A stretch of 64,000 bases of DNA from NCBI GenBank assembly GCA_951812735.1, contig OX638332.1, positions 876,732-940,731 on the forward strand. Direction: 5' to 3'. Positions 33,844 to 39,005 of this stretch are shown here, piece after piece. Each line of letters starts with the position of its first letter. Position 1 is the first letter of the stretch. A model generated the notes under the pieces. The model saw only the letters and a program-made list of their open reading frames with translations, had not been told where the DNA came from and made no database searches. The DNA comes from Candidatus Dadabacteria bacterium (GTDB lineage Bacteria; Desulfobacterota_D; UBA1144; Nemesobacterales; Nemesobacteraceae). A program made the position numbers and the translations under genes.

Positions 33844-34242
33844 TCACTCATCCAAACCGCCCTGTGCCGAAAGCCATCTCTCAATCACTAGAAGAACATA
33901 ATCAAGTTCCCGTTGGGTGAGCTTTTTTTTCTTAGGAATCCCGTGCCACTTAAAAAGACAACTCCGACAGCAGGTAGCCGTCGCGTGCTGGGCACGAAAC
34001 ACTGGATGTCCTCCCCAGGGAGTCTGCTTTCCGTCGTTTGCGGGCAGAGCGGGGGCAAGCCTTTTCTCAAGAAAATCCCTTCCGTGCGAAAGCACCGCGG
34101 CGAGACCCTTTTCTTTGAGATAAAGCGCCTCTTTGGAATTCAGCCTGAAGCCCGAGCGGAAACGGGATCCGCTGAGTCTTCTGAAAACAGCGTCCAGGCG
34201 CTTGCCTAAAAACTCTTTCTCACCGTCTTCCACTCTCTCCAC
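33844..34242 (-). CDS. DUF4186 family protein
   Basis: A 132-residue protein with the conserved core GHPVFRAQHATATCCRSC followed by KWHGIPKKKKLT and a C-terminal helix ending in ERWLSAQ, which I recognise as DUF4186. The paired cysteines and histidines suggest a metal site. Function is unknown. It begins 8 bases after the JAMM-DinG gene on the same strand, so the two are likely co-expressed. Confidence 0.85.
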   Translation of the reverse strand: MERVEDGEKEFLGKRLDAVFRRLSGSRFRSGFRLNSKEALYLKEKGLAAVLSHGRDFLEKRLAPALPANDGKQTPWGGHPVFRAQHATATCCRSCLFKWHGIPKKKKLTQRELDYVLLVIERWLSAQGGLDE

Positions 34243-34250
34243 AGAAAAAC

Positions 34251-36761
34251 TCAGTATTTTTGCCCCCTAGAGAAAAAATCGCGCATCCGCCCGAGTACCT
34301 GTTCTGTTTTTCCGCAGAAAAAATCGCTCCCCGAAACGGAGTTGATAAAAAACTTCCCGTAATATTTCGATACGATGCGTCTGTCAAGAACCATAACCAC
34401 GCCGCGGTCCGTCTTGGTGCGTATGAGCCTCCCGAAACCCTGCTTGAATCTCAGCACCGCGTGGGGAAGTATGTATTCGCGAAACGAATCTACATCCTGT
34501 TTTTCCATGTACTCGATTTTCGCCTCCGTAACCGGGTCCGTGGGAACCTTGAAGGGGAGTCTGCATATGACTACCATCCTCAGGGAATCTCCGGGAATGT
34601 CGACCCCCTCCCAGAAGCTGTCTGTCGCGAAAAGCACCGAGTTCCCAAGCGTTTTGAACTTCTCAAGCAGCAGGCCTCTCGGCATTTCTCCCTGCTTGAA
34701 AAGGGAGAGGTGTGCGAACCCGCTGCGCTCAAGGATCTCCCCAGTCTTCTGGTAGACACTGTTAAGCGAAGAATAAGACGTGAAAAGCACGAGGGCGTTT
34801 CCGTTCGTCACGGAGATCGAATCGGAGAGTATCTGCGCAATGGAATCTTCGTAGTTCTCTCTACCGGGTTCGGGAATGTCCGCAGGAACCAGAAGCAGGG
34901 ACTGTGTGCGGAAATCAAACGGGGAATCGACAATCAGCCCCCTGAATCTTTCGTTATCTGAAAGTCCGATGTTTTTTTTCTGAAAATCGAAATTCTTATC
35001 CACCGCGAGCGACGCGGAGGTCATAACAACGGTCTTGGTCTTTGAGTAGAGCTTTTCCTCAAGTTCTTTTGACACATCAAGCGGGGAGAGGTTGATTGAG
35101 CAGAAAATCGCCGCGCGCCTTCGGTTCCCCTCAAACCATCTGATATAACTCTCGTCCCTCTCGCCAAAAAACCTTCCTATAACTTCGCGGAAGGCAACGG
35201 ATCTTTTAGCAATGCCGCCAAGTTCGGCAGTGAGCTTTATGTAGGAATCCGCACGCGGTGAGGCTTCAACCACTCCCAGCAGGTGGGTTATCTCGTTTCC
35301 AAGCGAGAAAAGGGATTTTTCAAGCGCCCCGAAACGCTCCTTCACACCAGTCCATTTCTCGTGCCCCGAAACCTCTTCTGTAAGCCTCAGGCTTATCGCC
35401 GTTTCACCTGACATCTCCGCTCCGAAACCATAAAGCGAATTAAAAACTTCTTCGCTTACAGCTTCAATTTGCTCAACGGCCCTCGCAAGACCACCACCCG
35501 AGCGCTCGAAAATCTCCCTTAGAGCAGGATCTTTTTCGCTCTGCGCAAGATGTGAGATGTAGGATAGGAGTCCCTTGTCGCCGCCTTTGTTTTTCCGGGA
35601 GCGAAGCCTCGAGAGCGTCTTCATAATCCCGTGCTTGCTCAGTTTCAGGCTAAAGTGTGATGTCGCCGCCTCGGCGATATTGTGCGCCTCGTCGAAAACG
35701 ACCTTCGCGTAGCGGGGAATTATCCCGAAATCAGAATCGGGCCCCGCCGTCCCTTTTATCGCAACATCGGAAAAAAGCATGTGATGGTTAGAGACCAGCA
35801 CCGAAGCTCTTGAGAGTTCCCTGCGCGATTTAAAGAAAAAGCAGCTCGAATAGTGGGGACACTTGGCCCCCGGGCAGCTTTCGCTTTCCGCAGACACCCT
35901 GTCCCAGACATCGTCATGGGGAGTGAAGGCAAGATCAGAGAGTGAACCATCCGTAGTGGTCTTCGCCCACTCGAGTATGTCTTTCATCGACCCTCTTTCT
36001 CCGTCATCTATAAAATCGAACAGATCCTGCCCCACGGCCTCTCCCCGCAGAAGACAGAAATAGTTTCTCATTCCCTTAACTAATGCATAATCGAACTTTT
36101 TCGGGAAAGCGTCGCGAAGAAGCGGAAGATCCTTGTTTATCAGTTGTTCCTGAAGATTAATGGTGTTTGTGGAGATCAGAACCCTCTCGTCATTATTAAT
36201 CGACCAGAGAATGGAAGGTATGAGGTAGGAAAGGGTTTTTCCGGTACCTGTACCTGCCTCTATCATCGACAGGTATTCGTCGTTAAAAGCCTCGATTACG
36301 TTTGAGAGGACTTCTAGTTGCTCGTCCCTATGCTCGTATTTCTCTCCAAGAACCCGGGCTACGGGACCTGCAGGAAGAAGATATTCCCTCGCGGATTCAT
36401 TATCAACGCGGACCGTTTCCCCCGGAATGAAAGGTTCGACCACGACGTATACCTTTTCGACCTCGCTGTCCACTATGTAGAAACCGACCCCTTTGTTTCC
36501 GAAAGCCGAAGCGACAGCCACGTCCTGCTGGGAAGGCTCGAGATTGCCCGAGGGGTGATTATGCACCACAACGTTTCCTGTTTTCGCCGCGTCAAGAATC
36601 GCCGGAACTGCCTGGCGGTTGCCGCGGGCAAGGACTTGGACATCGCAGACCAGGGAACTTTCGTTTATCTTGCCAACGAAAAAAACCTCGTTTCCATAGG
36701 CCTCCGTTATCGCCTTCCTGATGAACTCAACAGCCTCGGGGGTAAAGTGGTTTTCTATCAT
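34251..36761 (-). CDS. DinG-type DNA helicase fused to an N-terminal JAMM (RadC-like) domain
   Basis: An 836-residue fusion. Residues 1-120 form a JAMM/MPN+ domain: Glu25, the metal motif H67-N-H69-P-S-G and PSQQD with Asp80, as in RadC proteins. Residues 135-836 are an XPD/DinG superfamily 2 helicase: Walker A GTGTGKT at 170-176, DEAH at 357-360, and four cysteines (236, 296, 301, 307) placed to hold the 4Fe-4S cluster of this family. The C-terminal motif LRFKQGFGRLIRTKTDRG is helicase motif VI. DinG unwinds 5'-3' and clears R-loops; the JAMM part could be a metalloprotease or nuclease-like module. Both active sites look intact. Confidence 0.92.
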   Translation of the reverse strand: MIENHFTPEAVEFIRKAITEAYGNEVFFVGKINESSLVCDVQVLARGNRQAVPAILDAAKTGNVVVHNHPSGNLEPSQQDVAVASAFGNKGVGFYIVDSEVEKVYVVVEPFIPGETVRVDNESAREYLLPAGPVARVLGEKYEHRDEQLEVLSNVIEAFNDEYLSMIEAGTGTGKTLSYLIPSILWSINNDERVLISTNTINLQEQLINKDLPLLRDAFPKKFDYALVKGMRNYFCLLRGEAVGQDLFDFIDDGERGSMKDILEWAKTTTDGSLSDLAFTPHDDVWDRVSAESESCPGAKCPHYSSCFFFKSRRELSRASVLVSNHHMLFSDVAIKGTAGPDSDFGIIPRYAKVVFDEAHNIAEAATSHFSLKLSKHGIMKTLSRLRSRKNKGGDKGLLSYISHLAQSEKDPALREIFERSGGGLARAVEQIEAVSEEVFNSLYGFGAEMSGETAISLRLTEEVSGHEKWTGVKERFGALEKSLFSLGNEITHLLGVVEASPRADSYIKLTAELGGIAKRSVAFREVIGRFFGERDESYIRWFEGNRRRAAIFCSINLSPLDVSKELEEKLYSKTKTVVMTSASLAVDKNFDFQKKNIGLSDNERFRGLIVDSPFDFRTQSLLLVPADIPEPGRENYEDSIAQILSDSISVTNGNALVLFTSYSSLNSVYQKTGEILERSGFAHLSLFKQGEMPRGLLLEKFKTLGNSVLFATDSFWEGVDIPGDSLRMVVICRLPFKVPTDPVTEAKIEYMEKQDVDSFREYILPHAVLRFKQGFGRLIRTKTDRGVVMVLDRRIVSKYYGKFFINSVSGSDFFCGKTEQVLGRMRDFFSRGQKY

Positions 36762-36854
36762 ATTCGCTTAATTTTACACAGAGGCGTTGATAACAAAACT
36801 TTCCGAGAGATGTTGCCTTGCCCCTTGGGCTTCGGTAGCCTGTTTTGCGGGTTG

Positions 36855-36945
36855 GGAGGGATGGCCGAGTGGTTTAAGGCGCTGGTCTCGAAAACCAGTG
36901 GGGTCTTTTTGGCCCTCGTGGGTTCGAATCCCACTCCCTCCGCCA
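36855..36945 (+). tRNA. tRNA-Ser (anticodon CGA)
   Basis: A long-variable-arm tRNA. The acceptor arms GGAGGGA and TCCCTCC pair, the anticodon stem CTGGT/ACCAG encloses loop CTCGAAA giving anticodon CGA for UCG codons, the class II variable arm is GTGGGGTCTTTTTGGCCCTC-like, and the T arm is GTGGGTTCGAATCCCAC. Discriminator G42 is followed by an encoded CCA at 36943-36945. It is divergent from the JAMM-DinG gene. Confidence 0.96.
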
Positions 36946-36980
36946 TTGACTTAAAACGAACTTTCATATGTCCTTGATGG

Positions 36981-37017
36981 CATACCTTCAAAAGCACAGG
37001 TATGTGGGGGCTTTTTT
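36981..37017 (+). terminator. Probable terminator after tRNA-Ser
   Basis: CATACCT and AGGTATG form a 7-bp stem around a 10-base loop, followed by TGGGGGC and a six-T run. The seven bases between stem and T-run are longer than ideal, though an alternative pairing of CAAAAGC with GCTTTT reaches the T-run. It lies 35 bases past the tRNA. Confidence 0.45.
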
Positions 37018-37869: not shown

Positions 37870-38151
37870 ATGAGACGTAAGAGGCGTAATCATTCACCGG
37901 GGTTCAAGGCTAAGGTAGCCCTGGCGGCAATCAGAGAAGACAAAACGGTTGCTGAGCTCGCCCGGCAGTATGACGTGCATCCCAACCAGATTGCCGAGTG
38001 GAAGAAACAGTTGTTGGAGGGTGCCGAGAGTGTCTACCAAAGCGCCCGGGATAAAAAGGGAGGAGAACAGGTTCATACCAAGGAACTGCATGCCAAGATC
38101 GGAGAGCTGACACTTGAGATAGATTTTTTATCCAAAGCGCTCGGTCGTTAG
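37870..38151 (+). CDS. IS3-family transposase OrfA
   Basis: A 93-residue DNA-binding protein with a helix-turn-helix ([20 protein letters not shown], then [20 protein letters not shown]) and a C-terminal coiled segment ([21 protein letters not shown]). It ends in a TAG. A six-T run at 38124-38129 near its end is a plausible slippery site for the -1 frameshift that makes the OrfAB transposase; the -1 frame is open from there into orfB. Confidence 0.93.
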
Positions 38152-38171
38152 AGCGGGCGCGGAGAAGGCAG

Positions 38172-39005
38172 TTGATAGATCACAATCATGATCTGAGCGT
38201 TGCAAGGCAGTGTGTGCTGCTTGATGTAAACCGCTCAAGCGTTTATTATCGCCCCAAGGAGCTGTCGCTGGAGAATGAAAGACTGATGAGGCTTATTGAT
38301 GAGATATATCTTGAGTACCCGTTCAAGGGTTCCCGAAGGTTGCGCGACGTGCTTTTGGCAAGGCATGGCATTTGCGTTAATCGCAAGCGGATAAGAAGGC
38401 TGATGAGACTTCTGGGGCTTACGGCACTGCATCCCGGGCCCAGGACCACCCACAGGAGGAAGGGGTATAAGATATATCCTTATTTGCTTGGAGGAATGGA
38501 CATAGAGCGTGTGAATCAGGTGTGGGCGGCTGATGTTACGTATATTCCCATGTCCAGAGGTTTTGTGTACTTAGTGGCTATCATGGACTGGCACTCAAGG
38601 AGGGTGCTTAGCTGGAGGGTGTCGAACACGATGGATGTGAGTTTCTGCGTGGAAGCATTGGAGGAGGCGATAGGCAAGTGCGGGCGGCCCGAGATCTTCA
38701 ACACAGATCAGGGAAGCCAATTCACAAGCCGGGGGTTTACGGGGGTATTGAAGAGAAACGGCATAAGGATCAGTATGGACGGGAAGAGAAGCTGGATGGA
38801 CAATGTGTTTATTGAGAGATTATGGAGGAGTTTAAAATACGAGGAAGTGTATCTTAAGGCCTATGATTCGGTTCGCTCGGCGAAGGAAGGGATTGGGGAA
38901 TGGATAGATTTTTACAATACTCGTCGGCGACATCAGGGTCTTGATAGATCTACGCCAGATCAGGTTTACTATGGTCTGCCTCGTGGATTACCAAAAGTGG
39001 CTTGA
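38172..39005 (+). CDS. IS3-family transposase OrfB (DDE integrase domain)
   Basis: A 277-residue catalytic part of the transposase; the first listed codon is TTG but it is normally made as an OrfA-OrfB fusion by -1 frameshifting. The HTH_21 part reads RLMRLIDEIYLEYPFKGSRR. The rve core has the DDE residues in WAADVTYIPM, IFNTDQGSQFTS and the Glu of VFIERLWRSLKYEEVY. The ending FYNTRRRHQGLDRSTPDQVYY is typical. All catalytic residues are intact. Confidence 0.95.
   Translation: MIDHNHDLSVARQCVLLDVNRSSVYYRPKELSLENERLMRLIDEIYLEYPFKGSRRLRDVLLARHGICVNRKRIRRLMRLLGLTALHPGPRTTHRRKGYKIYPYLLGGMDIERVNQVWAADVTYIPMSRGFVYLVAIMDWHSRRVLSWRVSNTMDVSFCVEALEEAIGKCGRPEIFNTDQGSQFTSRGFTGVLKRNGIRISMDGKRSWMDNVFIERLWRSLKYEEVYLKAYDSVRSAKEGIGEWIDFYNTRRRHQGLDRSTPDQVYYGLPRGLPKVA

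Follow-up and report, generated by a model that had tools for sequence, protein, structure and literature searches.

To our knowledge, RadC domains have no settled function. Fusions of RadC to DinG/RAD3 helicases were noted in 2017 (PMC5512222), and in its DinG/RAD3, HhH and ArdC-N fusions RadC occupies the position of a nuclease (PMC5512222, PMC3482391). Partly on the basis of the DinG/RAD3 fusions a role in nucleic-acid processing was proposed for RadC-type JAB domains (PMC5512222, PMC3482391), and the RadC clade was reported to be devoid of the ubiquitin-tail groove (PMC5512222). The 'RadC-like DinG' was named and defined in 2025, including its E/H/H/D residues and a modelled zinc (Cheng 2025, PMC11981726). 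According to that article, no research on any RadC-like DinG exists, a DALI search for topological relatives of the RadC-like domain returned metalloproteases instead of nucleases, and E. coli radC mutants are cited as not being damage-sensitive. Since the architecture was noted in 2017 and named in 2025 it is not new, and the Candidatus Dadabacteria protein analyzed here belongs to the RadC-like DinG subgroup.

The gene is located at 34251-36761 on the minus strand of the window (the whole 64,000 bp stretch of DNA that was analyzed) and consists of a single uninterrupted reading frame with an ATG start that encodes 836 amino acids, in which a RadC-type JAMM domain precedes a complete DinG/YoaA-type helicase. 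An earlier note had described one frame joining an intact JAMM site (E25, H67, H69, D80) to a full DinG-type helicase with iron-sulfur cysteines, and the reading frame, Pfam, the alignments and AlphaFold2 all agreed with this description. The JAMM/MPN+ domain spans residues 1-112 (36426..36761, minus strand) and is followed by a linker of residues 113-141 (36339..36425, minus strand), which bridges the JAMM fold and the first of the helicase motifs and was modelled with helices at 121-126 and 133-141. Residues 142-836 (34254..36338, minus strand) form the XPD-like superfamily 2 helicase with the Walker A motif EAGTGTGKT (168-176) and the DEAH box (357-360). Pfam detected a RadC-like JAB domain (PF04002) at 12-86 with 29.5 bits, which is above the cut-off, as well as DEAD_2 (304-377) and Helicase_C_2 (647-809, E 1.4e-46). 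The top NCBIfam matches were YoaA (538 bits) and DinG (396-493 bits), both under their equivalog cut-offs. Both parts of the protein were modelled confidently (pLDDT 88, pTM 0.84; JAMM domain pLDDT 90), with a C-terminal helix (819-835) after motor domain 2. In Foldseek searches the helicase part best matched the DinG structures of E. coli (6fwr/6fws) and S. aureus (8zef/9ii8), and these two DinG proteins were likewise the nearest PDB sequences to the fusion protein. In the stretch with the putative Fe-S cysteines (35841..36056, minus strand), C296, C301 and C307 were invariant and C236 was at least 90% conserved among 26 homologues; the helicase thus has a four-cysteine Fe-S site by its sequence and is predicted to bind a cluster. 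The nearest named homologue is from Candidatus Dadabacteria (91% identity over the N-terminal 200 residues). A tRNA-Ser(CGA) gene (36855-36945) lies divergently 93 bases upstream of the fusion gene. The minus-strand frame at 36758-36997 is spurious, being an antisense read of this tRNA gene, and a like artefact occurs upstream of one of the JAMM-less Dadabacteria helicases (L041). An insertion sequence of two ORFs that has an rve integrase core is present nearby (37870-39005). A promoter scan gave matches no better than shuffled sequences.

The JAMM motif HxHx7SxxD is complete in the fusion protein (H67, H69, S77 and D80, plus E25). The earlier note had pointed out that non-conserved JAMM residues among homologues would indicate an inert extension; the residues turned out to be invariant in nearly every member. 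In an alignment of 38 diverse fused domains from Dadabacteria, Geobacteraceae, KSB1, Sumerlaeota, Gemmatimonadota, Fusobacteriota, Spirochaetota and others, the only invariant columns were E25, G47, H67, N68, H69, P70, P76, S77, D80 and I96, nearly all of which belong to the JAMM motif or adjoin it. Within the genus, purifying selection on the JAMM domain (dN/dS about 0.04-0.08) is as strong as on the helicase (0.05-0.08). The site therefore looks catalytically competent as judged from its residues, with hydrolysis as a predicted activity, and conservation of the metal site suggests that catalysis is probably used while saying nothing about the substrate. Profile comparison related the domain to RadC (2qlc, E 6.6e-8) rather than to AfJAMM (0.05-0.06), and in Foldseek 2qlc took ranks 1-5, with Rpn11, CSN5, AMSH and BubCD following. 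By profile and by predicted fold the domain is thus nearer to RadC than to deubiquitinase-type JAMM proteins.

To trace the descent of the fusion, a tree of 108 helicase domains was calculated. Full-length homologues with the same domain order, for which the earlier note had recommended a search, were found throughout the genus and across phyla, demonstrating that the fusion is not a chance artefact. All 50 JAMM-fused helicases fell into one clade (SH-aLRT 95) covering at least seven phyla, apart from the long-N-terminus (ExoDinG-like) and the short YoaA/DinG-like helicases. Five JAMM-less helicases were nested within the fused clade, of which L040 and L041 come from a single Dadabacteria family and L096, L097 and L113 from Chlamydiota; no JAMM gene was observed beside JAMM-less helicases in the flanking stretches examined. 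As the fused helicases form one clade, a single old fusion followed by losses is likely and is the simplest reading, with some doubt left by the quick tree method, the midpoint root and several long branches. An origin from mobile elements was also considered and rejected: the fusion was not found in phages, and the only plasmid match spanning the whole N-terminal query was a 2.1 Mb record. PLSDB lists this Fusobacterium vincentii record (NZ_CP084075.1) among the plasmids; it is probably the chromosome.

The DUF4186 gene lies 8 bases downstream of the fusion, as had been noted earlier (33844..34242, minus strand; PF13811, 158 bits). It adjoins the fusion in the 14 genomes of the genus. In one sister genus and in one other Dadabacteria family the two genes are about 0.8 kb apart. 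In the remaining fusion genomes it is on other contigs or absent, and the suggestion that it is a co-conserved partner was therefore abandoned; it is probably a mere neighbour. Across phyla no neighbouring family recurred convincingly beside the fusion, and those clusters that did recur were either confined to particular lineages or made up of spurious frames. RadC domains, fused copies included, were present in 105 of the 148 genomes sampled. Stand-alone RadC was missing from all 14 genomes of the genus; most other Dadabacteria of the order have it, and it accompanies the fusion in most other fusion genomes. In Fusobacteriota it occurs regardless of the state of the fused domain, so that there is no general trade-off between the two. 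The idea that stand-alone RadC compensates for the state of the JAMM domain was accordingly dropped, leaving the Dadabacteria genus as the only one without a stand-alone RadC. In the genome searched (a single 1.59 Mb contig, 91% complete) neither HolC (PF04364), which was detected in the E. coli and Caulobacter controls, nor a LexA DNA-binding domain was detected. The fusion protein is therefore unlikely to be a HolC-bound YoaA or to be regulated by LexA.

Because the JAMM domain sits where other DinG subgroups carry an N-terminal exonuclease or endonuclease, a nucleic-acid substrate is favoured. We tentatively propose, at somewhat below an even chance, that the domain is a metal-dependent hydrolase acting in cis with the helicase on the nucleic acid that the latter exposes. 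The Fe-S helicase would engage single-stranded DNA and, moving 5'-3', would unwind a fork, an R-loop or a G-quadruplex, and the N-terminal JAMM domain might then hydrolyse the exposed material in cis. Polarity and helicase substrates are taken over by analogy from known DinG proteins, and metal-dependent hydrolysis, its coupling to unwinding and the nucleic-acid substrate are all steps that we infer. The fuller proposal, a helicase-coupled RadC-type JAMM metallo-hydrolase with DNA, RNA or a DNA adduct as substrate and a pseudo-enzyme form in one Fusobacterium lineage, is possible and put forward with more reserve. Less probable still is a peptidase, in line with the earlier note's suggestion of work on DNA-bound proteins or ubiquitin-like conjugates. 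It would trim or clear away proteins that the helicase encounters as it translocates, be they DNA-protein crosslinks or ubiquitin-like or sulfur-carrier conjugates. Those JAB/JAMM enzymes that have been characterised biochemically are peptidases (PMC5512222), the zinc-site residues are the same, the Foldseek matches after RadC include the proteins named above, and the genome contains one clear E1-like ThiF/MoeB gene; a search for E2 gave no match in the genome, nor did its controls. However, the fused domain is RadC-type and not deubiquitinase-type, its clade is the one reported without the groove, and a separate typical Prok-JAB gene is present in the genome (HSHPDHPSVPSETD). The role on ubiquitin-like conjugates that the earlier note had raised is thus conceivable and disfavoured, nucleic acid being the more likely substrate. 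The Prok-JAB gene directly adjoins a TnpB-like gene (L166:294-1944).

The idea of a fixed fusion was borne out with a qualification: the fusion forms one clade with a mostly invariant JAMM site, but the JAMM domain has been deleted and the helicase kept in four lineages, and the domain is catalytically degenerate in one Fusobacterium-type genus, so that the helicase can do without it. The deletions comprise two within Fusobacteriota (L172, L173, L208-L215), that of the Dadabacteria family and that of Chlamydiota. The helicase is present in 93 of 98 Fusobacteriota genomes. Among 53 proteins of this phylum, 39 have all five residues, four retain the domain without E, H and H, and ten are without the domain. 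The four dead-site domains belong to F. vincentii (L168:3989-6457) and three related species (L169-L171) and carry E to S, first H to R/K and second H to T/A substitutions. They were missed by Pfam and are still recognisable by hhalign (probability 95.6, E 1.2e-8). Judged by these residues, the JAMM domain of the F. vincentii group is a pseudo-enzyme form. In the Fusobacteriota tree the dead forms are sister to one of the deleted forms (support 100), while the second loss concerns a separate clade of small genomes. A chiefly structural or regulatory role of the domain (docking of proteins, guidance of DNA or autoinhibition), with catalysis secondary or absent, is improbable: it would fit the retention of the dead domain under purifying selection (dN/dS about 0.16-0.25) and the parallel with the pseudo-exonuclease subgroup pExoDinG (PMC11981726), but elsewhere no part of the domain is better conserved than its catalytic residues, and the dead group, being sister to a domain-deleted group, looks like decay. 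The nucleic-acid hydrolase is favoured over both the peptidase and the structural role. Counted for it were the invariant JAMM columns, the helicase-like dN/dS, the single fused clade, the kinship to RadC, the published argument from the nuclease-like position of RadC and its missing ubiquitin-tail groove, and the separate Prok-JAB gene; counted against it were the four deletions and one inactivation, which make the domain dispensable, the metalloprotease relatives and the lack of damage sensitivity of radC mutants. An active site kept nearly everywhere and dead or deleted in a few lineages limits where the substrate can lie, and intact, dead and deleted forms provide a natural series for asking whether catalysis matters. 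If true, a helicase-coupled metallo-hydrolase would give the RadC clade its first defined activity.

Compared with known systems, E. coli DinG and YoaA share the helicase core with its Fe-S site but are without an N-terminal JAMM domain. The S. aureus-type ExoDinG (8zef, 9ii8) is alike in the helicase core and in the place of the extra N-terminal domain, but this domain is an exonuclease and its helicase belongs to a separate clade; no exonuclease was matched by Pfam in the fusion protein. An assignment to type IV CRISPR CasDinG is disfavoured, as the matches to the PADLOC typeIV_DinG models are generic ones to the helicase core and no Cas gene occurs among the neighbours examined. Stand-alone RadC/YicR (PF04002) has the same JAMM residues and provides, with 2qlc, the best PDB and Foldseek relative of the fused domain, which scores 29.5 bits against PF04002 compared to about 120-161 bits for the full stand-alone RadC of related genomes. 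The dead-JAMM helicase of F. vincentii is paralleled by pExoDinG with its pseudo-exonuclease domain, and the passages of PMC11981726 consulted hold no mention of a pseudo-RadC form of RadC-like DinG. The closest system is RadC-like DinG itself, as represented by the Desulfuromonas soudanensis model (PMC11981726): the domain order, the E/H/H/D site, the Fe-S helicase, the C-terminal helix after motor domain 2 and a HolC-less genome are common to both, and the host, Dadabacteria, sets our protein apart with no difference of kind found. To this subgroup the present analysis adds the grouping into one clade, the near-invariant JAMM site, the purifying selection, the losses, the dead form, the limits of the DUF4186 linkage and the genus-wide loss of stand-alone RadC.
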